This document shows, one piece after another, positions 5,731-56,429 of a stretch of 64,000 nt of DNA (positions are counted from its first letter, which is position 1; the number at the start of each line of letters is the position of its first letter). The stretch covers positions 273,682-337,681 of the forward strand of contig NZ_LMKP01000001.1 in NCBI RefSeq assembly GCF_001421715.1. Direction: 5' to 3'. The position numbers and the translations under genes are program-made. Under the pieces are notes generated by a model. It was not told where the DNA came from. It searched no databases and saw nothing but the letters and a program-made list of their open reading frames with translations. The DNA is from Sphingomonas sp. Leaf22. GTDB lineage: Bacteria > Pseudomonadota > Alphaproteobacteria > Sphingomonadales > Sphingomonadaceae.

Positions 5731-6455
5731 AGGCGGGTCACCTCGGCCGCCAGCGTATAGCCGCCGCCCCACACGGTCTTGATGATGTCGGGGTTGCGGA
5801 CGTCGGTCTCGATCTTCTTGCGCAGCCGACTGACCTGATTGTCGATCGCCCGGTCGAAGGCGGCGGCCTCGCGCCCCTGGGTCAGGTCGAGCAACTGGTC
5901 GCGGGTCAACACCTGCCGCGGCCGCGTCACCAGCGCATGGAGCAGATTATATTCGCCGGTCGACAGCGGCACCGACACGCCCTCGCGATCGACCAGTGCC
6001 CGCTCGCCGGTCTTCAGCACCCAACCGGCAAAGGCGAACGATCCCGCCTCCGGGGCGTGTTGCCGGACCGTACCGCCGGCGGTCCGCCGCAACACCACCT
6101 TGACCCGCGCCGCCAGTTCGCGCGGGGAAAAGGGCTTCACGACATAATCGTCGGCTCCCATCTCCAACCCGACGATCCGGTCGGTCTCCTCCGTCCGCGC
6201 GGTCAGCAGGATGACCGGCGTCTCGCTGGTCTCGCGGATGTGGCGGCACAGCGACAGCCCGTCCTCGCCCGGCATCATGATGTCGAGGATGGCGAGATCG
6301 ATGGCATAGGCGTTGAGCCGCGCCCGCGCCCCCTCGGCATCGCCCGCCTGGGTCACGCGAAACCCCTGTTTCGTCAGATATTGGGCAAGCGGTTCGCGGA
6401 TCGATCGTTCGTCGTCGACCAGCAGGAGGTGCGGGATATCGGCCATGTCGGACAT
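5727..6455 (-). CDS. OmpR/PhoB-family response regulator
   Basis: This 242-residue two-domain regulator has an N-terminal receiver with acidic pocket residues in LLVDDE, phosphoacceptor Asp58 in LAILDIMMPGEDG, the Thr in LLTAR, and the conserved Lys in DYVVKPFSPREL. A C-terminal winged-helix DNA-binding domain follows (about residues 140-240), with LSTGEYNLLHAL and the closing VWGGGYTLA that marks the OmpR family. It is translationally coupled to the kinase (GTGA). It starts 65 bp downstream of a secreted EF-hand gene that may be the first gene of the operon. Targets are not visible in the sequence. Confidence 0.93.
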   Translation of the reverse strand: MSDMADIPHLLLVDDERSIREPLAQYLTKQGFRVTQAGDAEGARARLNAYAIDLAILDIMMPGEDGLSLCRHIRETSETPVILLTARTEETDRIVGLEMGADDYVVKPFSPRELAARVKVVLRRTAGGTVRQHAPEAGSFAFAGWVLKTGERALVDREGVSVPLSTGEYNLLHALVTRPRQVLTRDQLLDLTQGREAAAFDRAIDNQVSRLRKKIETDVRNPDIIKTVWGGGYTLAAEVTRL

Positions 6456-6520
6456 GCTATGCGCGGAAGCTCCTGAAAGGAACGCCGGACGGCGGGCGAC
6501 ACCCGCCGTCCGGCGCGGGA

Positions 6521-7084
6521 TCAGCCGGCGACATGCGGCGCGCGCCGCTGCATCCGCTTTTCCCGCACCATGAAGCGTTCGGCCGGATCGATCTGCCCGT
6601 CCTTGTTCACGTCCATGCGCTCGAACCGGGCGAGCGCGCGCGCCTGAAACGCGGCGCGGGTGATGGTGCCGCCCTGCTGCCCCCGCCGGCTCATCCGCTG
6701 TTCGCGCCCCTGACGGCGTTCGGCCCCATCGACCTTGCCGTCGCGATTGACGTCCTGCCGGTCGAACCCGGCAGCGGCCATCGCGCGGAACTCGCCGCGG
6801 GTGACGACGCCGTCGCGGTTCGCATCGGCCCGTTCGAGCATCCGGCCACCGCGGCGGCGGCGCGACCCGTCCTCGCCCGCGGGACCTGCCGCGACGGCGC
6901 GTTCGGTCGCGCTGATCTTGCCATCGCGGTCGGTGTCGAGCGCATCGAAGCGCTGGTCGGCGCGCGCCATCGCCTCGGCGCGGGTGACGACACGGTCGGG
7001 GCCGGGCGGCGGGGTCTGTGCGGCGAACGCAATGCCGGGCAGGGTGATGGCGGCCAAAGAAGCGGCGACGATGAACGATTGCAT
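6521..7084 (-). CDS. Secreted four-EF-hand calcium-binding protein
   Basis: This is a 187-residue protein with an N-terminal signal peptide, MQSFIVAASLAAITLPGIAFA. Four EF-hand loops are legible: DTDRDGKISATE, DANRDGVVTRGE, DVNRDGKVDGAE and DVNKDGQIDPAE, each with the regular D-x-N/D-x-D-G spacing and a closing Glu. The spacers are rich in Arg and Gly. I chose the ATG at 7084 because it starts the signal peptide and has AAAGG upstream; the frame remains open another 16 codons. It most likely binds calcium in the periplasm. It lies just upstream of the OmpR-type regulator and kinase, which suggests but does not prove a link with calcium or envelope sensing. Confidence 0.88.
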   Translation of the reverse strand: MQSFIVAASLAAITLPGIAFAAQTPPPGPDRVVTRAEAMARADQRFDALDTDRDGKISATERAVAAGPAGEDGSRRRRGGRMLERADANRDGVVTRGEFRAMAAAGFDRQDVNRDGKVDGAERRQGREQRMSRRGQQGGTITRAAFQARALARFERMDVNKDGQIDPAERFMVREKRMQRRAPHVAG

Positions 7085-7201
7085 GACGAACCTTTCGAAA
7101 ACGGGGGCACCCCCGGTGAATGATGCCCCCATATCGCTGCGACTTGTCGTCAGCCTATGTCGCCGCCGCCCCTTTTTGTCGCAGTTTGTCGCAGGTCCCG
7201 T

Positions 7202-7894
7202 TCAGCGCGGGGCGGGCGTTCCGAACAGCACGCGACGCTGCTCGTCGGTCATCGGCTGCTCGCGATAGCCGACCGCCTTGCCCTTCTCATAGGCGGCGAT
7301 GGTCGCCGGACGCGCGGCGATCGTATCGAACCAGCGTTTCAGATGGGGGAAGTCGTCCAGCTTCTGCCCCTGCGCCTCGTGCGGGACGATCCACGGATAG
7401 GCGGCCATGTCGGCGATCGAATAGTCGCCCGCGACGAACGCCCGGTCGGCCAGCCGCTTGTCGAGCACCCCGTACAGCCGCGTCGTTTCGCGGATATAGC
7501 GGTCCTGTGCGTAGGGAATCTTCTCGGGCGCATAGACGTTGAAATGAAAATTCTGCCCGGCCATCGGCCCCAGCCCGCCCATCTGCCACATCAGCCACTG
7601 GATCGCGTCATACCGCCCCGGCAGATCGGCAGGCAGGAACCGGCCGGTCTTTTCCGCCAGATACAACAGGATCGCCCCCGATTCGAAGATCGCCAATGGA
7701 CCGCCGCCGCCCGCCGGTTCGTGATCGACGATCGCCGGCATCCGGTTATTGGGGGCAATGGCGAGGAATTCCGGACGGAACTGCTCGCCATTGGCGATAT
7801 CGACCGGGTGGATGGTATAGGGCAGCCCCGCTTCCTCAAGGAACAGCGTGATCTTGTGGCCATTGGGCGTCGGCCAGTAGTGCAGGTCGATCAT
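7202..7894 (-). CDS. Glutathione S-transferase (YfcG/YghU-like)
   Basis: This is a 230-residue cytosolic glutathione transferase. The thioredoxin-like N-terminal domain includes YWPTPNGHKITLFLEE, the cis-Pro segment NNRMPAIVD, and the glutathione-contacting ESGAILLYLAEK. The helical C-terminal domain carries the capping motif SIADMAAYPWI. The TPNGHK sequence at the active site resembles the TPNG/TPNS of the Nu-class enzymes YfcG and YghU, which reduce disulfides rather than conjugate electrophiles. The ATG at 7894 is preferred over the longer frame because it starts directly at the first beta strand. Confidence 0.9.
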   Translation of the reverse strand: MIDLHYWPTPNGHKITLFLEEAGLPYTIHPVDIANGEQFRPEFLAIAPNNRMPAIVDHEPAGGGGPLAIFESGAILLYLAEKTGRFLPADLPGRYDAIQWLMWQMGGLGPMAGQNFHFNVYAPEKIPYAQDRYIRETTRLYGVLDKRLADRAFVAGDYSIADMAAYPWIVPHEAQGQKLDDFPHLKRWFDTIAARPATIAAYEKGKAVGYREQPMTDEQRRVLFGTPAPR

Positions 7895-16023: not shown

Positions 16024-18624
16024 TCAGGCCAGTTCGATGATCCGGATCAGGTCCTCGCTGGCCGCGACCGTCGCGGAGAGCGCCGTCAGGCTCGCCTGCA
16101 ACTCGTCGTTGCGGAACGGTTTGGTAAGGCGCGGGATATCGGAATCGATGCCGTCTTCCTCGGCATAGCCCGATACGATCAGGACCGGCAGCAGCGGATG
16201 GGTGACCTTCAGCATCCGGGCGAGTTGCGCGCCGCTGATACCCGGCATCAGGTGATCGGTGACGACGATATCGGGGCACAGCCCGTCGCCCATCATCCGC
16301 AACGCATCTTCGGCACTCGCGGCTTCGACCACGCGGTATTCGAGGTCGGACAGCATGTGCGCCGTGCTCATACGGACCAGTTCCTCGTCGTCGATCAGCA
16401 GGGCGGTGCCGCGCCGCCCCGATAGCGGCTGGATGTCGACGATCGGTTCGTCGGCGCAGATCGCCGTCTCGCTGACCGGCAGCCACAGGCTGACCACCGT
16501 CCCGTGGCCGGGGGTGCTGTCGATCGTCAGCCCGCCGCCCAGCTGCGCGGTCAGGCCATGGACCATCGACAGTCCCAGCCCGGTCCCCTTGCCGACGCCC
16601 TTGGTCGAAAAGAACGGTTCGATCGCGCGGCGACGGGTTTCCTCGTCCATGCCGATGCCGCTGTCGCCGACGCTCAACCGGACATACCGGCCCGGCGCGA
16701 AATCGCCCCTGGTTGCCGAAACGACGGTTTCGTGTCGCGCGCTGATCGTCAGCGTGCCGCCGTCGGACATCGCGTCGCGCGCGTTCACCGCCAGGTTCAG
16801 CAACGCCATTTCGAGCTGGTTCAGGTCGGCGCGCGCCGGGGGCAGGTCGGCCAGATCGATGCGCATCGCGATCGTCGGGCCCAGCGTCGATCCGATCAGC
16901 CCGGCCATGCTGTCGATCACCCTTGCAACATCGACCGCGGTCGGTTGCAACGGTTGGCGGCGGGCAAAGGCCAGCAGGCGCTGGACCAGCGTCTTGGCAC
17001 GCTCGGCCGATTGCAGGGCACCGCCGATCAGCCGCCGCTCGCGATCGGTGCCGACGCCCTTGCGGACCAGCATGTCGAGCGAGCCGATGATCGGGGTCAG
17101 CAGATTGTTGAAATCATGCGCGACGCCGCCGGTCAGGCTGCCCATCGCCTCCATCTTCTGACTCTGCCGCAATGCCTCGCGCGCCACTTCCAGATCGGCT
17201 TCGCGGGCCTTGGCGGTGGTGAGGTCGCGGCCGACCGCCACGAAGTTCCTACCATCGGCTTCGGGCGCGACGGTCCATTCGATATGCTTCCAGTCGCCGT
17301 CGCGGGTCCGGAACCGGTTTTCGAACCGGGTCGGCTGGCGCGTCCTCGCCATGCCGGCGATCGCCGCCGCCGTGTGGGCGATATCGTCGGGATGCGTGAA
17401 GCTGGCATGACTGCGCGACAGCAGTTCGGCCTCGCTCCATCCCAGGATCTGCGTCCATGCCGGGCTGACCGCCGACATCATGCCCGCGAAATCGGCGCGG
17501 GCCAGCATGTCCTGCGACAGGTTCCACAGCCGGTCGCGCTCGGCGGACCGGATCGCGACCTGTTCCTCCAGCGTCTCGTTCAGCCGGCGCAGCCCTTCCT
17601 CGGCGCGGGCGCGTTCGACCGCACTCTTGACCCGCTCGCCAACCTCCTGGACCAGATGTTCCTCGGCCGCCGTCCACGCGCGGGGGTGGGCCGACTGGAC
17701 CGCCAGCACGCCGACGCGATCGGTCTTGTCGAACAGCATGACGTCGACGAACGCCCCGACCTGCCGTTCGGCCAGACCGGCACGGGCTTCGTCGTTCAGG
17801 GCCATGTTGCCCGCCACGTCGGCGACGACCAGCGGCACGCCGCTGCGATAGGCGTCGAGCAGACCGGGGCCGAACGCGTCGAGCGAATGGACGCCGGCGA
17901 GCGACGGCACGCCGCGACAATAATCGCGTTCGACGACCATCCGCCCATCGACGCCGATCTCGGCATAGAATACCCGCGATGCATCGAGCCATTCGGCGAT
18001 GCGTTCGGAGGCGACGGTCGTGATGTCCCGGCGCGTCGTTAGCGGCCGGAGCGCGTCGGACAGCGACAGCAGGAACTGGCTGTGGCGGACGCTGGCAAAC
18101 CGTTCGGTCGTATCGGCAAGGATGCAGAGGACGCCCGCCGGCACCCCCGCTTCGTCGAGTACCGGCGAATAATCGAGGTCCATCCAGACCCGTTCGGGCC
18201 GGCCGCTGCGGGCCAGCGTCATTTCCTGATCGCGGTAGCGCAGCGTCCCGCCGGCCAGCACGACGTCCATGACATGGTCGTTGAAGGCGGCGGCTTCCGG
18301 CCAGCCTTCCCGGAGGTTCGACCCCAGCAACCGTGGGTGCCGCGTGTCGGCAAAGACCGAATAGGCATCGTTGTACAACATCACCCCGTCCGCGCCCCAC
18401 AACAGCACGATCGGAACCGGTGAGCGGAGCGCGAGGGCGAGCGTCGTGCGCAGGGGCTGCGGCCACCCATCGATCGGTCCGAGCGGCGTCCGCGACCAGT
18501 CATGCGCCGCGATCAGCGCGGCACAGTCCCCGCTACCGGCTAGGAAGCCCGGCAGGGCCTGCGTATCCAGCGCCGACGCGGCGGGAATGTCCAACATGCG
18601 GGTAGGTGATCCTGATCTGGGCAT
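16024..18624 (-). CDS. PAS/GAF hybrid histidine kinase with C-terminal receiver
   Basis: This is a soluble kinase of 866 residues. It has an N-terminal PAS-like segment (about 40-175, DWSRTPLGPIDGWPQPLR then LLWGADGVMLYNDAY), a GAF domain (about 185-340), a second PAS domain (about 370-475), a dimerisation domain with [13 protein letters not shown] (His503), an ATPase domain ([29 protein letters not shown]) and a C-terminal receiver (LLIDDEELVR, Asp790 in [18 protein letters not shown]). No membrane segments are seen. The frame remains open upstream to 18720, and an ATG at 18597 is also possible. It is divergent from the LOV operon. Its kinase-receiver core is strikingly like that of the kinase at 53421-56429. 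Confidence 0.92.
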   Translation of the reverse strand: MPRSGSPTRMLDIPAASALDTQALPGFLAGSGDCAALIAAHDWSRTPLGPIDGWPQPLRTTLALALRSPVPIVLLWGADGVMLYNDAYSVFADTRHPRLLGSNLREGWPEAAAFNDHVMDVVLAGGTLRYRDQEMTLARSGRPERVWMDLDYSPVLDEAGVPAGVLCILADTTERFASVRHSQFLLSLSDALRPLTTRRDITTVASERIAEWLDASRVFYAEIGVDGRMVVERDYCRGVPSLAGVHSLDAFGPGLLDAYRSGVPLVVADVAGNMALNDEARAGLAERQVGAFVDVMLFDKTDRVGVLAVQSAHPRAWTAAEEHLVQEVGERVKSAVERARAEEGLRRLNETLEEQVAIRSAERDRLWNLSQDMLARADFAGMMSAVSPAWTQILGWSEAELLSRSHASFTHPDDIAHTAAAIAGMARTRQPTRFENRFRTRDGDWKHIEWTVAPEADGRNFVAVGRDLTTAKAREADLEVAREALRQSQKMEAMGSLTGGVAHDFNNLLTPIIGSLDMLVRKGVGTDRERRLIGGALQSAERAKTLVQRLLAFARRQPLQPTAVDVARVIDSMAGLIGSTLGPTIAMRIDLADLPPARADLNQLEMALLNLAVNARDAMSDGGTLTISARHETVVSATRGDFAPGRYVRLSVGDSGIGMDEETRRRAIEPFFSTKGVGKGTGLGLSMVHGLTAQLGGGLTIDSTPGHGTVVSLWLPVSETAICADEPIVDIQPLSGRRGTALLIDDEELVRMSTAHMLSDLEYRVVEAASAEDALRMMGDGLCPDIVVTDHLMPGISGAQLARMLKVTHPLLPVLIVSGYAEEDGIDSDIPRLTKPFRNDELQASLTALSATVAASEDLIRIIELA

Positions 18625-18817
18625 GGCCCGCCGGTTTCGCCAGTAAATGCTCGCTATATGTAATGTTCCTACCGCAAATATGATCCGGATTAAATTCTCA
18701 TTCGCCGGGTTTGCGGTCATGGCATGTCCATCGGCGACGCGGTTCCGTCCACATCCGCGACGCGGGTTGTTATCCCTCCGGCTTTGCGGGTAATCCGCGA
18801 CCGAAGAAGGAGTGCCC

Positions 18818-19375
18818 GTGCAACAGGAACTGCCCCGGTCGCTCGTCGACTATCTGTTACAGTCGCGCGTCGCTCTGGCCGTCGCTTCGGCGCATGACGA
18901 CCACCATCTGTTGATGGTGAACGATCCGTTCTCCGCGCTGACCGGCTATAGCGCCGACGATGTGGTCGGCCGCAATTGCCGGCTGCTCCAGCGCGAGGCG
19001 ACGAACGTCCAGCCGCGTGCGCGGCTGCGCGAGTTTCTGGCGCAGTCCGACCAGACCAACGTGCGGACGCCGATCGTCAACTTCCGCAAGGATGGGCGGC
19101 CATTCGTCAACCTGTTATATATGTCGCGGTTGCGCGGGATCGACGGGCGGTGCGATTTCGTCTTCGCGTCGCAATTCGACGTCAGCCGGTCGCAGCCCGA
19201 ATTGCTGGCCGAGTATGACGAGCAACTGCGCGCGACGCTGGGCAAGCTGGTCCCGATCGCGGGCGATGCCGGAATCGTGATCGAGGGTACGTTGCTGACC
19301 ATCGCCAACAGCGCCGCGATCGTGGCACAGGCGAAAATGATGCTCGCCGATCTGGAGTCCGCCCCCGGTGCATGA
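18818..19375 (+). CDS. Short LOV-domain blue-light photoreceptor
   Basis: This is a 185-residue protein built around one LOV (PAS) domain. NDPFSALTGYSADDVVGRNC (the Cys is residue 54) followed by RLLQ is the canonical flavin-adduct motif. FRKDGRPFVNLLYMSRLRG and FVFASQFDV supply the flavin-contacting Asn, the Gly-Arg turn and the terminal Gln. A helical C-terminal extension (about 125-185) has no output domain, as in short LOV proteins that act through partners. I chose the second GTG (18818), because AAGGAG sits 5 bp upstream of it and overlaps the alternative GTG at 18812. The stop overlaps the CheB/CheR kinase gene by 8 bp, suggesting direct light control of that kinase. Confidence 0.9.
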   Translation: MQQELPRSLVDYLLQSRVALAVASAHDDHHLLMVNDPFSALTGYSADDVVGRNCRLLQREATNVQPRARLREFLAQSDQTNVRTPIVNFRKDGRPFVNLLYMSRLRGIDGRCDFVFASQFDVSRSQPELLAEYDEQLRATLGKLVPIAGDAGIVIEGTLLTIANSAAIVAQAKMMLADLESAPGA

Positions 19376-22300
19376 TGTGACGACGTCGCGGCCCGATGCC
19401 GCGCCGCAGACGGCGGTGCCGATCGTCGGCATCGGTGCGTCGGCCGGCGGGCTGGAGGCCCTGCGCGAGATGCTGGCTCCGGCGACGCTGCCGACCGGGC
19501 TTGCCTTCGTCATCGTCCAGCACCTCGACCCCAATCACGAAAGCATGCTGGCGCAACTGCTCGACCGCACCACCGTGCTGCCGGTGCTGCAAAGTGCGGG
19601 CGGCGAACGGATCGAGGCCGATACCGTCTACATCATTCCGCCCGGCCGGGGCCTTGCCGTGCGTGACGGCGTGCTGGAGCTGACCGAATTCCAGCAGCCG
19701 CGCGGGCTTCGCCGGCCGATCGACGATTTCTTCCTGTCGCTGGCCAGCGACCAGCAATCGAACGCCGCCTGCGTGATCCTGTCGGGCACCGGTGCCGATG
19801 GCACCACCGGGCTGCGCGCGATCAAGGAAAATGGCGGCGTCTGCGTCGTGCAACAGCCCGAAAGCGCGCGGTACGACGGAATGCCGCTGTCGGCGGTGGG
19901 CACCGGCATGACCGATTTCGTCCGGCCGCCGGGCGAGATCCTCGAATGCCTGCAACGCTTTTTCCAGCGGCGGCGCAGCGATCCGGCCGAGCGCGAGGCC
20001 GGTGTCGTCGCCGATCATGTCGACGAACTGTGCCGGGTACTGCGATCGACGATCGGCCATGACTTTTCGGGGTATAAGCGATCGACTTTCGTCCGCCGGG
20101 TCGAACGGCGGATGCATGTGCTGGGCATCGATACCGGGCGTGCGTATCTGTCGCGGGTGCGCGGCGATGCCGGCGAATGCGAGGCGCTGTTCCGCGATCT
20201 GCTGATCAACGTCACCCGCTTCTTCCGCGATCCCGAAGCGTTCGAGCAATTGCGGGTGCGCGTCATCGAACCATTGATGGCGCAGCGTCCGGGCGACGAG
20301 GATCTGCGCGTCTGGGTCCCTGGCTGTTCGAGCGGTGAGGAAGCCTATACCATCGCGATGCTGTTCGCCGAGGCCGCCCGCGCGAGCGGCCAGCCGCTGG
20401 CGGTGCAGATCTTCGCGACCGATATCGACGAACAGATGCTGGGCATCGCCCGTACAGGCAATTATCCGATCTCGGCACTGGTCGACCTGCCGCCGGCGCT
20501 GCGCGAACGCTACACGGTGCCGCATACGGACCGGTTCTCGATCACACCGGAAATCCGCGACATGATCCGGTTTTCCAACCACAGCCTGGTCAAGGACCCG
20601 CCGTTTTCGCGGATCGACCTGGTGTCGTGTCGCAACCTGCTGATCTATTTCGACGATCGGCTGCAGCAATCGGTCGTGCCACTGTTCCACTTCGCGTTGC
20701 GCGAGAGCGGCTATCTGTTCCTCGGGCCATCGGAAAGCGTCGGCCGGTTCGAACATCTGTTCCAGGCGGTCGATCCATCGGCGCGGGTGTTCGTCCGCAC
20801 AGCGGGCGCGACCAGCTATCCCATCGACCTGCCGGCCAACACCTATCCACCCGTCGTCCGGCGCGAACGCGGCGACCGGACCGACAGCCGGTCGCTGGGC
20901 AGCGAGGCGACCGCGATCCGGCGCATGGTCGAACGCTATGCACCGCCCAGCCTGATCGTCGATCAGGACGGGGGCATTGTGTCGGCCTATGGCAAGCTTA
21001 GCCGCTATTTCGAATTTCCGGTGACGCGAACCGGGGGCAGCAGCGCCGTCAATCTGGCGCGGCCGGGATTGCGCACCGTCATCGGCCCGCTGTTGCGGCA
21101 GGCGCGAGACGAAAAGCGGCGCACGGTCGCGCGCGATGTCGACGTCGAGACCGATTACGGGACGCAGCCGATCGAGGTGATTTGCGACCCGCTGGGCGAC
21201 GGTACGCTGTTGTTCGTGTTCCGCGAAACCGGTTCGTTCCGCCCGGCCGATGGTGACGACCTGCGCGATCTGGAGGCGGGGCAGGACCATATGGAGGCGC
21301 TGGAGGACGATCTGCGCCTCACCCGCCACCGCCTGCGCTCGGCGATCGAGGAACTGGAGACGGCGAACGAGGAGCTGAAAAGCTCGAACGAAGAAATGAT
21401 GTCGATGAACGAGGAACTTCAGTCGACAAACGAGGAACTGTCGACCGTCAACGACGAATTGAAGAGCAAGGTCGACCAGCTTACCGTCGCCAATTCCGAC
21501 CTGCGCAACTTCTTCGAATCGACCGAACTCGCGGTAGTGGTGCTCGACGCCGAGATGAAGGTCCGCAGCTACACCGACGCGGCGACGACGATCTTCCCGT
21601 TGAAACCCACCGATCGCGGCCGGCCGTTGACCGACGTCGCCAGCCGGTTGCAGGGGTCCGATCATTTCGACGATGCCCGCGCGGTCGTTGGCGGTGCCGC
21701 GCCTCGTCAGCGGCGGGTCCACACCGTCGATGGCCAGCACGTCTTCTCGATGCGCGTCCTGCCCTATCGCAAACAGAGCGGTGCCGTCGATGGTGCCACG
21801 CTGGTGCTGACCGACATCACCGATGCGCTGACGCTGGAACGGCAACTGGCCGCCGAGCGCGAGCGGCTCGACATCGCGATCAAGGCGGCGGGCATCGGCG
21901 TGTGGGAATATGCGCCCGAAACCGGCGAACTGGTGCTCGATCCGGTCGAGCGCGCCCTGTTCTCGCTGAACGACGACGATGCCGACGATATCGCGACGCT
22001 GCTCGACCGGATCGACGCGGACGACCGGAGCAACGTCGAGGCGGCGCTGCGCCGCGCGATCGAACGCAGCGGCGATTACGAGGCGACCTTTCGCGTCCGT
22101 GGGCCCGATGGGGAGACGCGCTGGGTAAAGGGGTTCGGGCGGATCGTCGCTGGCAGCGCGCCGAAACGGCTGGTCGGGGTGTCGATCGACGTGACGCCCG
22201 AATATGTCGTCGCCGAAACGCGCGAACTGATGCTGCGCGAGATGAACCACCGGGTGAAGAACCTGTTCGCGGTCATCGCGGGCATGATCACGATCGCGTC

Positions 22301-22808
22301 GCGCAGTTATGACGACGTGCCGGGCTTTGCGGACGATATCCGTCGCCGGATCGCGGCGCTGGGGTCGGCGCATTCGCTGGCGTCGCCGGCGGGTCAGCCG
22401 CAGGCGGTGGGGCTGGACGACATCGTCGAAACGACCCTTGCGCCGTATCGCGATCATGCACGGATCGAAATCGATGGTCCGGTCGTTGCACTCAATCGTA
22501 ATTGCCTTTCGCCGCTGGCGCTCGTTCTACACGAATGGGCAACCAATTCGGTGAAATATGGGGCGTTGGGCAGCGACGGCCTACGGGGCCTTCGGGTCCG
22601 GTGGCGGGTTGGGGACGGGGGAATAGAACTGACATGGACCGAGGAAGCGGACGGCATCGAAAAGCCGGCAGTGGGCAAGCGCGGTTTCGGGTCCGTGCTG
22701 GTCGAAACGAGCGTGCGGCAGCTTCGCGGCACGATGCACAACATGGTCGAGGATGGGGTGTTCCGGCTGGAAATCCGCCTGCCGACCGCAGTGTTGCTGC
22801 ATGACTGA
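19368..22808 (+). CDS. CheB-CheR-PAS-HWE histidine kinase fusion
   Basis: This is a 1146-residue single-chain signalling protein. Residues 15-195 form a CheB methylesterase domain with the Ser25 (GIGASAGG), His52 (QHLDPNH) and Asp144 (GTGADG) triad. Residues 215-480 form a CheR methyltransferase with the SAM site VWVPGCSSGEEAYTIA and CRNLLIYF. Residues 643-710 form a repetitive coiled coil rich in NEEL repeats. Two PAS domains lie at about 710-825 and 835-950. The C-terminal HWE kinase has REMNHRVKNLFAVIAGM (His961), an N-box HEWATNSVKYGAL and the WTE signature in ELTWTEEADG. There is no N-terminal receiver on the CheB part. It starts at GTG inside the LOV gene and ends inside the response-regulator gene. 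Confidence 0.93.
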   Translation: MHDVTTSRPDAAPQTAVPIVGIGASAGGLEALREMLAPATLPTGLAFVIVQHLDPNHESMLAQLLDRTTVLPVLQSAGGERIEADTVYIIPPGRGLAVRDGVLELTEFQQPRGLRRPIDDFFLSLASDQQSNAACVILSGTGADGTTGLRAIKENGGVCVVQQPESARYDGMPLSAVGTGMTDFVRPPGEILECLQRFFQRRRSDPAEREAGVVADHVDELCRVLRSTIGHDFSGYKRSTFVRRVERRMHVLGIDTGRAYLSRVRGDAGECEALFRDLLINVTRFFRDPEAFEQLRVRVIEPLMAQRPGDEDLRVWVPGCSSGEEAYTIAMLFAEAARASGQPLAVQIFATDIDEQMLGIARTGNYPISALVDLPPALRERYTVPHTDRFSITPEIRDMIRFSNHSLVKDPPFSRIDLVSCRNLLIYFDDRLQQSVVPLFHFALRESGYLFLGPSESVGRFEHLFQAVDPSARVFVRTAGATSYPIDLPANTYPPVVRRERGDRTDSRSLGSEATAIRRMVERYAPPSLIVDQDGGIVSAYGKLSRYFEFPVTRTGGSSAVNLARPGLRTVIGPLLRQARDEKRRTVARDVDVETDYGTQPIEVICDPLGDGTLLFVFRETGSFRPADGDDLRDLEAGQDHMEALEDDLRLTRHRLRSAIEELETANEELKSSNEEMMSMNEELQSTNEELSTVNDELKSKVDQLTVANSDLRNFFESTELAVVVLDAEMKVRSYTDAATTIFPLKPTDRGRPLTDVASRLQGSDHFDDARAVVGGAAPRQRRVHTVDGQHVFSMRVLPYRKQSGAVDGATLVLTDITDALTLERQLAAERERLDIAIKAAGIGVWEYAPETGELVLDPVERALFSLNDDDADDIATLLDRIDADDRSNVEAALRRAIERSGDYEATFRVRGPDGETRWVKGFGRIVAGSAPKRLVGVSIDVTPEYVVAETRELMLREMNHRVKNLFAVIAGMITIASRSYDDVPGFADDIRRRIAALGSAHSLASPAGQPQAVGLDDIVETTLAPYRDHARIEIDGPVVALNRNCLSPLALVLHEWATNSVKYGALGSDGLRGLRVRWRVGDGGIELTWTEEADGIEKPAVGKRGFGSVLVETSVRQLRGTMHNMVEDGVFRLEIRLPTAVLLHD

Positions 22809-23193
22809 TCCGGTCCTGCTCGTCGAAGACGAGCTGTTCATCGCGCTGGACGTACAGGCGACGATCGAAGCGGCGGGTTTCGCGGTCGAAGGGCCGTGCA
22901 TGACGCTGGTCGAGGCGCAGGAGGCGGTCGATCGCTTCAACGCCGCATTCGCCGCTGCGGTGCTCGATGTCCGTCTGGCCGATGGTACGGTGTTCGAGGC
23001 GGCCGACCGGCTCCACGCCGCCGGGGTACCGCTGATCTTCCATTCGGGTCATGCCGACGATGCCGATCTGCGGCAACGCTATCCGCAGGCGATGGTGTGT
23101 CCGAAGCCCAGCGCACCCGATACGCTGGCAGCGGCAATCCGCCGCGCGGCGATGCGCGATGCCGACCCGTCGCGCCGCATCGCTAACGGTTGA
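22801..23193 (+). CDS. Single-domain response regulator of the LOV/HWE operon
   Basis: This is a 130-residue stand-alone receiver: LLVEDELFIALD (acidic pocket), phosphoacceptor Asp56 in AAVLDVRLADGTVF, IFHSGHAD (Ser/Thr position) and VCPKPSAPD (conserved Lys). It lacks any output domain, typical of receivers that pair with HWE kinases and pass the signal by protein contact or act as a phosphate sink. The ATG at 22801 overlaps the kinase stop by 8 bp, so it is almost certainly the dedicated partner of the upstream fusion kinase. Confidence 0.9.
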   Translation: MTDPVLLVEDELFIALDVQATIEAAGFAVEGPCMTLVEAQEAVDRFNAAFAAAVLDVRLADGTVFEAADRLHAAGVPLIFHSGHADDADLRQRYPQAMVCPKPSAPDTLAAAIRRAAMRDADPSRRIANG

Positions 23194-23253
23194 TCAATCG
23201 GGAGCGGCCGTGAATACGCTGACGATGCTGTGTCCCGCCTGGCGGACAGCGCG

Positions 23254-24255
23254 CTATTTCGCCCAGAGCGAGCGGATCAGCCAGCCATTTTCGGTGTCCC
23301 AGCTTTTCGCACGGTCGCCGATGCTCTCGCCCCGGAACAGATAGGTTTTCGACCAGCGCGGACCCCAGCCCCATGCCGCGCCTCCGACCACTTCCGGCGT
23401 GGCGCGGAAGAAGGTGACGATGTCGTCGACCATCGCCTGACACGTCTTCGGCACCGTCTTGGCCCGGCCGAACGCGAATTCGCCGACATACAGCCGCATG
23501 CCGAGCTTACGCGCCGCCTTCACGGAATTGCCGAGTGGCCCGGTCGCCGGATAGGGGCGGCATTCCGGCGTCGCGCCGGAGCCGCCACGATTGAAGTAGC
23601 GGTGCGGCGACAGCCAGGTACGCTTCAGCGGGTCGAGATCGGCCAGCGTGAAGATACCGCCGCGGTTCAGGCTGCACAGAGCGCTTTCGCAGGCCCGTTT
23701 CGGCGGCTCGCCGCGATCGGCCCGGCCGAACCCCGACCATCCGCGCCATTCGAGGATCAGCTGGTTGTCGACCCCCGCCTTGCGCAGTGCATGGATCAGG
23801 TCGCGGGCGTCGGGGCCCCAGCTAACCCATGTCCCGCCCTTCGGTTCGTTTTGCAGGTCGAACGCGACCAGCGGCTGGCCGCGATACCGGCGTCCCATCC
23901 GCAGCCAGAAGTCGCGGATCTCCGGGTCGCCGATATTGCCATAGCTGTGTTCGTCGATGACCATCAACATGCCGCGTGCCGTCCCGCGCCTGATCAGCGC
24001 ATCGAGCGCCGCTAGCGTTTCCGGTGTGTCGAGCCGGGCGCGCTTGACGGGCAGGCGGATGCTTTTCGCACCGGCATCGGCGTAGAAATCGATGTCCTGC
24101 GGCCTGACCGGCAGCGATTCCTTGAACTCCAGACCGCTGACGTTCACGCCCCACCACCGGCCCTGCTCCAGAAACGCATGGCTGTCGCGGCGTGGTGCCG
24201 CGGCGGCCGGTATGGCCGATATCGACAGCGCGAGGAGGAGCGGGGCGATCTTCAT
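23254..24255 (-). CDS. Secreted glycoside hydrolase family 5 (endoglucanase-like)
   Basis: This is a 333-residue secreted enzyme with signal peptide MKIAPLLLALSISAIPAAAA and a single TIM-barrel GH5 domain. Catalytic residues are visible: acid/base Glu137 in VAFDLQNEPKG and nucleophile Glu259 in MRLYVGEFAFG. SIRLPVKRARL and VIDEHSYG are further GH5 landmarks. Substrate class (cellulose, mannan or an endogenous exopolysaccharide) cannot be read directly. Its position directly before a polysaccharide flippase and glycosyltransferases suggests a polymer-trimming role in exopolysaccharide production, as GH5/GH8 enzymes play in other export clusters. Confidence 0.88.
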   Translation of the reverse strand: MKIAPLLLALSISAIPAAAAPRRDSHAFLEQGRWWGVNVSGLEFKESLPVRPQDIDFYADAGAKSIRLPVKRARLDTPETLAALDALIRRGTARGMLMVIDEHSYGNIGDPEIRDFWLRMGRRYRGQPLVAFDLQNEPKGGTWVSWGPDARDLIHALRKAGVDNQLILEWRGWSGFGRADRGEPPKRACESALCSLNRGGIFTLADLDPLKRTWLSPHRYFNRGGSGATPECRPYPATGPLGNSVKAARKLGMRLYVGEFAFGRAKTVPKTCQAMVDDIVTFFRATPEVVGGAAWGWGPRWSKTYLFRGESIGDRAKSWDTENGWLIRSLWAK

Positions 24256-51288: not shown

Positions 51289-53208
51289 TTAGTTCCCGGT
51301 CACGAGCGCGGCATCACCAAGCCGGGCATGTAATTGAAATACCAATCCTTCCGGGCGGTATTCGGTTGCGGCCTGCCCCCGAAAATAGGAGCGGAGCGAT
51401 CGTTCGATCAGCGTGCTGCCGAACCCCTTGCGCTGCGGCAACGAAACTTCGGGGCCACCGCGTTCCTCCCAGCGCATCGAAAAGTTCGCGTCCTCGTCGC
51501 TGCCATCGATATCCCACGACAGCGACACCGAACCGTCATCATTGGAGAGCGAGCCGTATTTCACGGCGTTGGTGGCCAGTTCGTGCAGGGCGAGGACGAA
51601 CGCGACCGACACTTCCGGTTTCAGCGTCACGCGCGGACCATCGACCCGGATCCGGTCGCCCAATGCGGCGTGCGGGGCCAGGGTCCGCTCGATCAACTGC
51701 TTCAGATCGGCCGAGCGCCACGATTTGCTGACCAGCACGTCGGTCGCCGCACCGAGTGCCGCGAGGCGGGATGTGAGATCCCGGCTCGCGGTTTCGGTAT
51801 CGCGGGCATTGCGCAGCGTCTGGCTGGCGATCGACTGCACGATCGCGAGGACATTCTTGAGGCGATGCGCCAGTTCGCCGTTCATCATCGCCAGATCGTC
51901 CTCGGCGCGCTTGCGGTCGCGGAAGTCGCGGGTGACCGTACCATAGCCGACCATCGCACCATTCGCGTCGGTGATCGCGAACACCGAATAAAGCGCCGGA
52001 ATGGCCTCCCCGGTCCGGAAGTCGCGCAATGCGATCTCGCCGCTCCAGTGCCCGTCCCGCGCGACCGCCGGTAAGGCCACGTCGATCACTCTCGCGGCTT
52101 CATCGGGCGCGAAGAAGTCGGCGATCGTGAAATCGGTGGCGTCCGCATCGCCGACGCCGACCATCCGCCGCGCCGCATCGTTCAGGTAGAAGACTCTGCC
52201 ATCGGCCCATGCCATGCCGACGAAGTCGTTGCTGTTTTCCACCAGCCGGACGAAGCGGTCGCGCTCCTCCTCGCTCGCGCGAAGATCGCTGATGTCGCGC
52301 GATACCGACAGGATGCGCTCGGGCTGTCCGTCCGCCCCTGGGATCGGGCTGACGGCGACATGCCACCATTTGGGCGTGCCGGCCATCGTGTCGGCCTGCC
52401 CCATGAAACTGCGCGCTTCCCCCCGACGGGCCGCCTCCAGCGCGGCGACCGCCGCATCGTTGCCGGCACCGCGCCAGAAGTCGGGCCAAGGACAGCCGAC
52501 GATCGCGTTGAAGTCCGACACCTCCATCACCCGCTGGCCGCCTTCGGTCATGAAGGTCAGGCGGCCATCGAGATCGAGGATCTTGATGCAGTCGGTCGAG
52601 CTGGCGAACACGCTGCGAATGAACGCCTCGCTCGTGGTCAGGTCTTTCAACGCAGCGTCCCGCTCGCGCTGCGCGATGACTCGCGAGGTGCTGTCCGAGG
52701 TCACGTTGAGCAGCCCGACGACCTCGCCGTCTTCGCCGTGAATCGGCGAATAGGCGAAATCCCACCATGTCTGTTCGGCGAAACCGTTGCGCGTCATCGT
52801 CAGCGGCTGATCGCGAAAGACGCAGGATTCGCCGGCAAAGGTGGCATCCACCAAAGGCTTCAGTTCATTCCAGATTTCCGGCCACACGTCGGCAGTGGGC
52901 CGGCCGAGCGCGTCGGGATGTCGCGCACCCAGCAGCGGGGCATAGGCATCGTTGTACAGGAGCACCCGCTCCGGTCCCCCCAGGATGCACATCGCATGGC
53001 CGGACGAGGCCATCATGCCGACCGCGGTTCGCAGACTGTGCGGCCATGTCGCGTAAGCACCGAGCGAGCTATTTTCCCAGGGATGCGTCCGTATCCGCTC
53101 CCCCATCATCCCGCCGCCGGCGAAACATCCCGAACCAGACTTCATGTCGCCGTTTCCGTCCTGCTCGATGGTGAACGCGATGCCGCACCGGTCTGGCGCG
53201 GTTGGCAT
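51289..53208 (-). CDS. Triple-PAS HWE-family histidine kinase
   Basis: This is a soluble kinase of 639 residues. Three PAS domains lie at about 45-180 (beginning ENSSLGAYATWPHSLRTAV), 190-310 and 315-435. They are followed by an HWE kinase domain with GELAHRLKNVLAIVQSIASQ (His448), ALHELATNAVKYGSLS (the N-box with the HWE His) and FSMRWEERGG (the W-x-E of G1). HWE kinases commonly read light, redox or general stress through PAS cofactors; no LOV cysteine motif is present here. The ATG at 53208 has GAGG 5 bp upstream, while 53145 is a possible later start. It forms an operon with the receiver that follows it. Confidence 0.9.
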   Translation of the reverse strand: MPTAPDRCGIAFTIEQDGNGDMKSGSGCFAGGGMMGERIRTHPWENSSLGAYATWPHSLRTAVGMMASSGHAMCILGGPERVLLYNDAYAPLLGARHPDALGRPTADVWPEIWNELKPLVDATFAGESCVFRDQPLTMTRNGFAEQTWWDFAYSPIHGEDGEVVGLLNVTSDSTSRVIAQRERDAALKDLTTSEAFIRSVFASSTDCIKILDLDGRLTFMTEGGQRVMEVSDFNAIVGCPWPDFWRGAGNDAAVAALEAARRGEARSFMGQADTMAGTPKWWHVAVSPIPGADGQPERILSVSRDISDLRASEEERDRFVRLVENSNDFVGMAWADGRVFYLNDAARRMVGVGDADATDFTIADFFAPDEAARVIDVALPAVARDGHWSGEIALRDFRTGEAIPALYSVFAITDANGAMVGYGTVTRDFRDRKRAEDDLAMMNGELAHRLKNVLAIVQSIASQTLRNARDTETASRDLTSRLAALGAATDVLVSKSWRSADLKQLIERTLAPHAALGDRIRVDGPRVTLKPEVSVAFVLALHELATNAVKYGSLSNDDGSVSLSWDIDGSDEDANFSMRWEERGGPEVSLPQRKGFGSTLIERSLRSYFRGQAATEYRPEGLVFQLHARLGDAALVTGN

Positions 53209-53420: not shown

Positions 53421-56400
53421 GTGTACGATAACCCTGCTTCGAACGGCCCGGACCCTGCATCGCTGCTGATCGCCGCCAGTGCGGCCTTGGCTGGCGCGCA
53501 TTCGGTCGATGAAGTCGTGGATGTGCTGCGCCGAACCGCGCGGGCAGTAGTCGATGCGGACGGGATCGCCGTCATCATTCGCGACCGCGACCAGTGCCAT
53601 TACATTGCCGAGGACGCGATCGGGCCGCTGTGGCGCGGTCGCCGGTTCCAGTCGGCGGATTGCATTTCCGGCACGGCGATGCGGTCGAGCGAGACGATCG
53701 CCATCGCCGATATCCGAGCCGACGCGCGGGTGCCGCAGGACCTCTACAGCAGCACGTTCGTGCGCAGCCTCGCCATCGCTCCGATCGGCCAGCCCGAGCC
53801 GATCGCGGCGCTCGGCGCGTACTGGTCGGAAGTGAATGCTGCGGATGCCGGGACGATCGGGCGGCTCGAGGGCCTTGCGAAGCTGGCGACGGTCGCGATC
53901 CAGAATGTCCGCCTGATCGAGGCGCGGGACCGTGCCGCCGCGCTGGCAGCCGCACAGAGCGACATCCTCGAACGGATCGTCCGCAACGAACCGCTTGGCG
54001 ACACGCTGGATGCGATCATCGCGCAGGTCGAGCGGCTATCGACTTCGGGCGTGCTGGGGTCGGTGCTGCTGCTCAGCGAGGATGGCGAAACCCTGCGTCA
54101 TGGTGCCGGGCCAAGCCTCCCGGCCGCCTATAACGAAGCGGTCGACGGCATCGCGGTCGGCCCGGCGGTCGGGTCGTGCGGCAGCGCCATCGATCGTGGC
54201 GAACCCGTCTTCGTCACTGATATCGCCACCGACCCGCTCTGGGTGGATTTTCGCGATCTCGCGCTGGCCCATGACCTGCGCGCGTGCTGGTCGACGCCGA
54301 TCCGATCGGCGGCGGGGGCGATCCTCGGCACCTTCGCCATGTATCACCGCGAGCCACGCGACCCGGCACCGGCGGACCTCGAAATCGTCGACTTCGTCGT
54401 CCATACCGCGGGTCTCGTCATCGAACGCGCGCTGGCCCAGGCGGCCGCCCGGTCGGTCGAGGCGTCGTCGCGCACGCGCGAGCGCGAACTTCATTTCGCG
54501 CTCAAGGCGGGGCGGTTCGGGGCCTGGCATCTCGACCTCGTCAGCGGCGAACTGACGGCATCGGAGACGTGCCGCACGAATTTCGGCCGCGATCCGGGTG
54601 CCGAATTCCCCTATTCCGAATTGGTCACAGCGGTGCATCCCGACGACAGCGAAGCGATGCAGGCCGCCGTGGCCGCGTCGATCGCGACGGGCGGCGATTA
54701 CGACATCGAATACCGGATCATCACGCCGTCTGGGGAACTGCGCTGGGTGCAGATACGCGCGCAGCCGGCCTATGCCGAAAACGGCGATCCCATCGCGATG
54801 ACCGGGGTGTCGCTCGACATCACCCAACGTCGCGCGGCGGACGACCGCTTACGCGAATGGAACGATACGCTCGAAAGCCAGGTCGCCGAGCGGACGGCGG
54901 AGTTGCGGTTCCACCGTGACATCATCGAAGCGACCGTCTCGCCCATCTGCGCCTTCGATCACGATTACCGGCTGATCGCCTTCAACAAGGCGCATAGCGA
55001 CGAATTCTTCCGTATCTTCGCTCATCGCGTTCAGATCGGCGAGGTGTTCCCCGACCTCTTCCCGCCCGATCAGGCCATGGTCATGCGCGGCTTCATGGCC
55101 CGTGCGCTGGCCGGCGAGAGCTATATGACGGTCGAGGAGTTCGGTGATCCCGACCTCGCCAAGCCGCATTGGGAAGTCATCTACACGCCGCTTCTCGATG
55201 AAGCCGGCGGGGTGATGGGCGCCTTCCACGTCGCGAATGACGTTTCGCACCGGCTGCGATCGGAATCCGAGTTGCGGGCGACGCAGGACGCGCTTCGGCA
55301 GGCGCAGAAGATGGAGGCGATGGGCCAGCTGACCGGCGGCGTCGCGCACGACTTCAACAATCTGCTGACGCCGATCGTCGGCAGCCTCGACATGCTTCAG
55401 CGCAAAGGGATCGGCAACGAGCGCGAGCAGCGCCTGATCGCAGGCGCGATGCAGTCGGCCGAACGGGCGCGGACGCTGGTGCAGCGATTGCTTGCGTTCG
55501 CACGACGCCAGCCGCTGCAGGCAGTGCCGGTTGATGTTGCCACACTGGTTGCGGGCATGGGCGATCTCGTCTCCAGTACCACCGGTCCGCAAATCAGGGT
55601 CTTCGTGGCGACCGAACCCGATCTACCGCCTGCGCTGGCCGATCCCAATCAGCTGGAAATGGCGTTGCTCAATCTCAGCGTGAATGCCCGCGACGCAATG
55701 CCCGAAGGCGGCACGTTGCGGATCACGGCGAGCGCAAGGCGCGTGGATCGGCCAAACGAGGCAGCGGTGGCACCCGGCAACTATGTCTGCCTGTCCGTTG
55801 CCGATACCGGTATCGGCATGGACGAAGCGACGCTGGCCCGTGCCGTCGAGCCTTTCTTCTCCACCAAGGGGGTCGGTCAGGGAACCGGCCTTGGCCTTTC
55901 GATGGTCCACGGTCTCGCCTCACAGCTCGGTGGTGCGCTCGTCATCCGCAGCCGGCTCGGCATGGGCACGAACATGGAGCTTTGGCTGCCGCAGAGCGCC
56001 GAGGCGGCCACGCAGGTCGATGCCGCCGACCATCATGGTCCGACGTCGTTCAGCGGTCGCGTGCTGCTGGTCGATGACGAGGAACTGGTCCGATTGAGTA
56101 CCGCCGATATGCTGGCGGACCTCGGGTACGACGTGGTCGAGGCCGCCTCCGGAGAACAGGCCCTCCGCGTTCTGAACGAAACGCCGATCGATCTTCTCGT
56201 CACGGACCATCTGATGCCCGGCATGACCGGCGTCGATCTGGCGCAAGAAGTCCGCCGTCGATCGCCGCAAATGCCGGTTCTGCTCGTCTCGGGCTTTGCC
56301 GAGGTCTGCGGGCTGGACGCAGCCCTGCCTCGTTTGGTCAAACCGTTCCGCAAGGACGAACTCGCCGCCATCATCGAACGGGTGTCGTGCCCCGACCGTT

Positions 56401-56429
56401 CGCTCGACGCATCGTCGAAGAATGGCTGA
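53421..56429 (+). CDS. GAF-GAF-PAS-PAS hybrid histidine kinase with receiver
   Basis: This is a 1002-residue soluble hybrid kinase with two GAF domains (about 15-165 and 180-340), two PAS domains (about 355-470 and 500-612, the first with the PAC segment [19 protein letters not shown]), a HisKA domain with [13 protein letters not shown] (His643), an ATPase ([31 protein letters not shown]) and a C-terminal receiver ([10 protein letters not shown], Asp929 in [20 protein letters not shown]). The start is GTG with AAGGAAGG upstream. The core from about residue 615 to the end is closely similar to the kinase at 16024-18624, while the sensory halves differ. It is divergent from the HWE kinase. Confidence 0.92.

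Follow-up and report, generated by a model that had tools for sequence, protein, structure and literature searches.

What does a short LOV (light-oxygen-voltage) protein act on when it carries no effector domain of its own? The question is raised by a three-gene locus of Sphingomonas sp. Leaf22, at positions 18818-23193 of the 64,000-nucleotide stretch of contig NZ_LMKP01000001.1 analysed here (the window), in which genes for a short LOV protein, a CheB-CheR-HWE histidine kinase and a stand-alone receiver follow one another with an 8-base overlap of the called open reading frames at both junctions; the first-pass annotation of this DNA had already read them as three overlapping genes. Comparisons of sequences and structural models make it probable, at roughly seven chances in ten, that the LOV protein serves the CheB-CheR-PAS-PAS-HWE kinase as a detached light subunit acting in trans, the operon encoding a two-protein blue-light receptor together with its output. 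This reading draws on the adjacency of the two genes across clades, on control LOV loci, on the gene neighbours of RsLOV, on a fold match and on the kinase tree. For another short LOV protein, DsLOV, the accessible part of its paper states that the signalling partner is unknown.

Conservation of the LOV-kinase pair

In a sample of 201 genomes of the genus, 39 (the window's included) encode, among the matches listed, full-length short LOV proteins at 52-100% identity; the same matches then show a gap down to 36% (G158, again a full-length short LOV), followed by LOV cores that mostly lie within longer frames. The kinase gene is found downstream of the LOV gene and on the same strand in all 40 Sphingomonas loci assembled (the window, 38 foreign loci and G158; the kinase frame of L061 is broken), across which the LOV cysteine and flavin contacts, the CheB Ser/His/Asp and the CheR S-adenosylmethionine (SAM) motif are retained. 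Among the matches listed, the nearest named loci are those of S. lacusdianchii and Sphingomonas sp. Leaf9.

A scan of the genome collection returned at least 80 LOV loci, 16 of them short frames matching the C-terminal tail of the window's LOV protein; among the matches listed, the kinase adjoins LOV in each of these 16 named-genome loci (in pieces in L086 and L089), which span Sphingomonas, Methylobacterium, Methylorubrum, Aureimonas, Aliirhizobium, Novosphingobium, Limimaricola and Sagittula. A downstream kinase was also present in 17/17 loci of other Sphingomonadaceae (298-genome family sample; L173 is cut by a contig end), four of which have an extra gene in between, and behind all five tail-bearing LOV genes of a 248-genome Rhodobacterales family sample (L091, L184-L187; one extra gene), the genus, family and named-genome sets overlapping. 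Thirteen plasmid records carry LOV, and the four examined all show LOV, CheB-CheR kinase and receiver (NZ_CP104991, one of the nine records outside that count, was seen as L089). Because gene order is retained down to about 34% LOV identity, the arrangement is not due to chance; the first-pass annotation had made its proposal depend on this order, and in each tail-bearing locus fetched the kinase gene neighbours the LOV gene. The pair persists through apparent inter-order transfer, an inserted gene and flipped receivers, and no further gene was found to recur widely around it in the 27 of 71 loci covered.

Other LOV genes provide a control: a CheB-CheR fusion was found in the fetched flanks of none of 84 loci, comprising 64 from the scan and 20 tail-less short frames (L237-L256, among the matches listed for the family and the genus, with the L239 and L250 sequences stopping right after LOV). 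In two of the 64 (L131, L141), CheR and CheB lie close by as separate genes that are not fused. In the other direction, 25 CheB-CheR loci taken from the search of the class (27 foreign places less G586:C28 and G637) yielded no LOV gene in flanks of about 3.5-4 kb. Searched alone against 385 genomes of the class, the tail matched only the window's genome and one marginal stretch (E 0.007), and no second sensor family bearing it was found in that sample, which shows the module to be patchy outside the family.

The receiver is a looser part of the module than the LOV-kinase pair. It shares the kinase's strand in 38 of the 40 Sphingomonas loci (G158 is convergent and the G129 contig ends first), and in the 16 named-genome loci it lies on the same strand in ten, convergently in two and, in four Methylobacteriaceae, was not found adjoining the kinase. 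One genus has a gene of about 256 amino acids between LOV and kinase (L168-L170, with a gap of like size in L171), and the like inserted gene of the Rhodobacterales locus L185 is of Crp/Fnr type (Pfam). No receiver was found beside the kinase in L168-L170 and L185; in the clade with the Crp/Fnr-type insertion the output may be transcriptional.

In a tree calculated by a quick method from the CheB-CheR part (64 rows; the short L164 was left out), 34 kinases with an upstream LOV form one clade (support 100) and six RsLOV-type kinases another (100); both belong, with the LOV-less cousin L160, to one set supported at 95, and a single clade of all 40 LOV-linked kinases is not rejected (approximately unbiased test, p-AU 0.346). 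In a further quick tree, Methylobacteriaceae and Aureimonas kinases nest among those of Sphingomonas (supports 86-99), a placement which, combined with the LOV identities, indicates that the two genes probably moved together between orders. The L160 gene (615-5003, minus strand) has before CheB an open frame of about 325 residues without Pfam match, a possible other input in cis if really translated.

LOV and kinase distances are correlated over the 40 loci (Mantel r 0.91), a value that shared ancestry also raises and that is not taken as proof of contact. A Rosetta-stone fusion of LOV to CheB-CheR was rejected: nine of ten long LOV frames (L223-L232) have no CheB-CheR match (eight of these match the kinase profile over the PAS/kinase part alone, L231 nowhere); the remaining one, L224, proves to be a short LOV with a frame that continues antisense to its head-to-head kinase. 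This check also took in L233, a second LOV gene of the window's genome.

The LOV protein and its likeness to RsLOV

The first-pass annotation described a short LOV protein with the photoactive cysteine and no output domain, a description that stands except that the protein is more than a bare core, being extended by a conserved and mostly helical tail. Residues N53, C54, R55 and Q58 are unchanged across 64 LOV sequences, in keeping with the photoactive-cysteine motif GxNCRxLQ, and so are N88, N98 and Q119, which we take to be the flavin-contacting Asn/Asn/Gln. The AlphaFold model (64-sequence alignment; mean predicted local distance difference test score, pLDDT, 88.4) has the predicted make-up of an RsLOV-type protein, with an N-cap helix and C-terminal helices around the LOV core and no effector domain.

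When the LOV alignment is compared with PDB sequences, entries of RsLOV (known from 4hia, 4hj3, 4hj4, 4hj6, 4hnb, 7ob0 and 7obz) come out best, and RsLOV chains fill the first 12 rows of a Foldseek search with the model. VIA-align matches model residues 3-177, nearly the full length, to RsLOV 4hj4 (Z 19.5, root-mean-square deviation (r.m.s.d.) 2.5 over 162 residues), the next structural kind following at Z 16.8. Identity is 24-29% and the tail residues differ. The likeness extends to the gene neighbours, a CheB-CheR-PAS-PAS-HWE kinase and a receiver; however, the RsLOV gene is divergent from the kinase, whereas that of the window lies upstream of it on the same strand.

Nine other short LOVs of the Rhodobacterales family sample (five longer frames, from G984, G1027 twice, G943 and a second G873 match, were left out) include seven that are head-to-head with a CheB-CheR-HWE kinase (L189, L190, L192-L195, L224) and two that are not (L188, L191). 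In the genus of L192, RsLOV is matched at 72-100% in 5/5 genomes, four of which have the head-to-head kinase and a receiver; the fifth, L201, contains at 5920-7890 an RsLOV-type LOV and a receiver match, with a kinase neither between nor beside them. With double counts removed, the head-to-head arrangement occurs in 10/13 genomes. One of the ten, which matches RsLOV at 100% over 150 residues, is taken to be R. sphaeroides, and the kinase beside this gene contains CheB, CheR_N, CheR, PAS_10, PAS_4 and HWE_HK (Pfam).

Kinase, receiver and neighbouring genes

The kinase architecture read by the first-pass annotation, CheB-CheR-coil-PAS-PAS-HWE, is borne out by Pfam matches (Table 1), with a weak PAS-like part between CheR and the long coil. 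No receiver domain was found by Pfam before CheB, which starts at residue 20, unlike a canonical CheB; Ser25, His52 and Asp144, which we take to be the places of the catalytic triad, are invariant in 37 LOV-linked kinases, consistent with a predicted methylesterase. CheR_N and a SAM-binding domain, whose model matches 5ftw (with S-adenosylhomocysteine; Z 28.7) and whose SAM motif GCSSGEE occupies residues 319-325, make a predicted methyltransferase. With the catalytic positions of both enzymes kept, the suggestion that the kinase may also methylate or demethylate a target is plausible. HWE kinases are marked by an N-box His-Glu-Trp and a W-x-E motif; the window's kinase has HEWATN and WTEE (HWE_HK 59 bits, cut-off 22.8), and His961, Asn1060, Trp1090 and Glu1092 are unchanged across the LOV-linked set.

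Table 1. Features of the LOV-kinase-receiver locus; coordinates are those of the window
Feature	Position	Strand	Details
Short LOV gene	18818-19375	+	185 amino acids (aa), GTG start, AAGGAG at 18807-18812
LOV core	about residues 19-124	+	PAS_9 49.8 bits, sole family above cut-off (Pfam)
Photoactive Cys54 in NCRLLQ	codon 18977-18979	+	NCR in 40/40 aligned Sphingomonas LOVs
C-terminal tail, mostly helical	residues 126-181 = 19193-19360	+	conserved
CheB-CheR-(PAS-like)-coil-PAS_10-PAS-HWE histidine kinase gene	19368-22808	+	1146 aa, GTG start
CheB methylesterase domain	residues 20-193 = 19425-19946	+	CheB_methylest 174.9 bits; 3sft Z 29.6
CheR methyltransferase	CheR_N 219-267, SAM domain 281-469 = 20022-20774	+	44.5 and 176.4 bits
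Glutamate-rich coil	residues 655-705 = 21330-21482	+	667-686 invariant in 37 LOV-linked kinases
PAS_10 domain	residues 712-818 = 21501-21821	+	place of LOV domain in Brucella LOV-HK
PAS_3 domain	kinase residues 876-938	+	Pfam
HWE kinase core	22239-22787	+	HWE_HK 958-1038, His961, ATPase to about 1140; 5epv Z 17.8
Stand-alone receiver gene	22801-23193	+	130 aa, ATG start
Receiver phospho-Asp56	codon 22966-22968	+	FHSGHAD motif also present
Divergent hybrid kinase	16024-18624	opposite to trio	GAF, PAS, HisKA, HATPase, receiver (Pfam)

Brucella abortus LOV-HK (NF052306; 6ph4) resembles the window's pair in combining LOV, PAS and an HWE-type kinase core, although there the LOV domain is fused, whereas here it is separate, PAS_10 stands in its place and CheB-CheR and the coil are added. 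Kinase model residues 702-1144 align to 6ph4 18-477 (Z 16.7, 422 residues; the r.m.s.d. of 14 comes from domain pose) and 710-944 to 6pps 21-271; against the NF052306 equivalog (BluLightHisKinLov), LOV and kinase score 92.1 and 110.7 bits, below the cut-off of 450. LOV-less CheB-CheR fusion kinases (L160-L164, L203-L222) share the CheB-CheR-coil-PAS scaffold and, in most, a NEELQSTNEEL-like coil core, but in 13/25 the match to the profile ends short of HWE, and the EEMMSMNEEL of LOV-linked kinases is found among these 25 in L160 only. For R. centenum, the accessible part of PMC2890560 has a CheB-CheR hybrid, RC1_3878, and names as LOV gene a LOV histidine kinase. A precedent for action in trans is PmSB-LOV/PmlR2 of Pseudomonas mendocina, where, according to the accessible part of PMC9758184, a short LOV binds its adjacently encoded effector light-dependently; that effector is a LitR/CarH transcription regulator, whereas the candidate here is a CheB-CheR kinase.

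The third protein is, as proposed, a single-domain receiver with the phospho-acceptor Asp56 and no output domain found by Pfam, even though its Response_reg match (23.4 bits) lies below the curated cut-off of 30.2; D56, D10/E11, S82 and K102 are invariant in 12 receivers. Its best solved relatives are 2lpm, 2msw, SdrG (5ieb) and PhyR (4g97), single-domain or PhyR-type proteins of what we take to be HWE/HisKA2 systems. A FATG-type motif is typical of SdrG/FAT GUY single-domain receivers; the window's protein carries FHSGHAD in its stead, which sets it apart from that group.

The divergent hybrid kinase, suggested earlier to belong to the same circuit, is a local neighbour only, adjoining the trio in just 7/40 loci (the window and its close relatives L039-L044; L046, L052 and L056 entered this count with less than 2 kb of upstream DNA). 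A sigma-70 promoter scan of 18560-23320 found none (shuffles, mean 0.7). A second sensory cluster, 28 kb away, comprises a multi-PAS HWE kinase (51289-53208, minus strand; HWE_HK 88.4 bits) and, next to it, a receiver-bearing GAF/PAS hybrid kinase (53421-56429, plus strand).

A proposed light pathway and a candidate methylation target

We envisage that blue light would form a flavin-Cys54 adduct, upon which the N-cap and C-terminal helices may rearrange by analogy with RsLOV, which according to the accessible part of PMC9614035 is dimeric in the dark and monomeric in the light. The contact with the kinase would then change, its likely sites being the LOV tail and the coil/PAS part, and with it both the autophosphorylation of the HWE kinase and the passing of phosphate to the receiver encoded alongside; the predicted CheR and CheB domains could methylate and demethylate target glutamates, not necessarily those of a methyl-accepting chemotaxis protein (MCP), and thereby set or adapt the gain. 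The position of PAS_10 where Brucella LOV-HK has its LOV domain suggests, as far as the models go, that light sensing was moved to a separate subunit.

Several observations weigh against a trans-acting light subunit. Conserved adjacency shows functional linkage, not contact; the receiver gene is not always next to the kinase; three of the 13 genomes with RsLOV-type LOVs (L188, L191, L201) have no adjacent kinase; and the model may reflect RsLOV structures that AlphaFold met in training, so that the fold of the tail is not independent evidence. In L061, L086 and L089, moreover, the kinase frame is broken into 2-3 pieces next to an intact LOV, by assembly error or decay.

An alternative that we regard as unlikely is that LOV acts on the CheB-CheR half, light setting the methylation of a target while the kinase's own PAS domains let the HWE part respond to some other signal. 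Conservation is higher in CheB, CheR and the coil than in PAS_3, HWE and ATPase, and RsLOV is reported, in the accessible part of PMC4335406, to affect chemotaxis genes; yet the four HWE residues named above are likewise invariant in LOV-linked kinases, and PAS_10 occupies the place that LOV has in Brucella LOV-HK. Less likely still, LOV and kinase might be mere co-regulated neighbours in one light or stress regulon, LOV having a partner elsewhere. Clustering of signalling genes is common, one clade has the Crp/Fnr-type gene between the two, and the kinase-less RsLOV-type loci fit this idea, but it sits poorly with a pair that is retained in either of two orientations, across several orders and also on plasmids while no other gene recurs widely, and with a tail so specific that the class sample is nearly empty of it and the 20 tail-less short LOVs have no CheB-CheR neighbour.

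As to what would be methylated, 59/65 pair-bearing genomes have MCP domains and six (G318, G454, G376, G418, G291, G873) have no match, nor any match to CheW; five of these are 99-100% complete and the sixth comes without a figure. In G418, G291 and G873 no CheR match was obtained other than that of the LOV-linked kinase, where the catalytic residues are kept (each of the other three has one more), which argues that the target is not, or not only, an MCP. That CheB and CheR serve ordinary MCPs in trans, coupling light to chemotaxis, is improbable in view of these six genomes, even though the genome of the window yields 14 MCP and 10 CheW matches and, on an R. rhizoryzae plasmid (L183, 3500-7735), the trio is preceded by two genes annotated as chemoreceptors.

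The best conserved part of the kinase is its coil, with a mean commonest-residue frequency over 65 CheB-CheR proteins of 0.78 (residues 655-705), against 0.65 for CheB, 0.62 for CheR and 0.44 for HWE; the ten most conserved 36-residue windows all start at 656-667. In a set of 37 kinases whose overall identity falls as low as 33%, twenty consecutive residues (667-686) do not vary at any heptad position; at the level of sequence this exceeds what packing requires, and it marks the coil as a candidate for methylation or for docking of LOV. Its Glu pairs are spaced seven residues apart, the sequence E-E-x-x-S-S/T occurs at 668 and 682, and NEEL repeats run over 661-705. Given this spacing, the conservation and the persistence of the enzyme parts in MCP-less genomes, one might imagine a self-adapting light receptor whose CheR and CheB modify glutamates of the coil joining them to PAS-HWE, although we find this doubtful: the coil could equally be a docking face for LOV, and the kinase sequence nowhere matches the full MCP methylation consensus (E[EQ]xx[AST][AST], half of that motif, occurs only at 661, 668 and 682), which counts against a plain MCP-like site. 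The kinase model (predicted template modelling score 0.40, with the coil helix 640-694 at low pLDDT) is too loose for placing the coil against CheR. If the idea were true, one polypeptide and a detached LOV subunit would do the work of receptor, CheA, CheR and CheB in chemotaxis.

No description of a LOV and CheB-CheR kinase pair was found in the open-licence literature, and the accessible parts of PMC7083833, PMC5812497, PMC8508746, PMC4335406, PMC4416707, PMC4844311, PMC9614035, PMC13322254, PMC2890560, PMC8396549 and PMC9758184 do not name such a kinase as the partner of a short LOV; the deep conservation of the pair is the new part of the finding. A lone LOV protein travelling with a CheB-CheR kinase in several alphaproteobacterial orders suggests what such sensors talk to. 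The signalling partners of short LOV proteins become testable, and for RsLOV, which serves as an optogenetic tool according to the accessible part of its literature, a candidate partner is encoded right next to it. The substrates of CheB-CheR fusions become testable as well, pair-bearing genomes without MCP or CheW and with a single CheR being clean hosts, and, if LOV does control the kinase in trans, the two proteins would constitute a two-part optogenetic switch.

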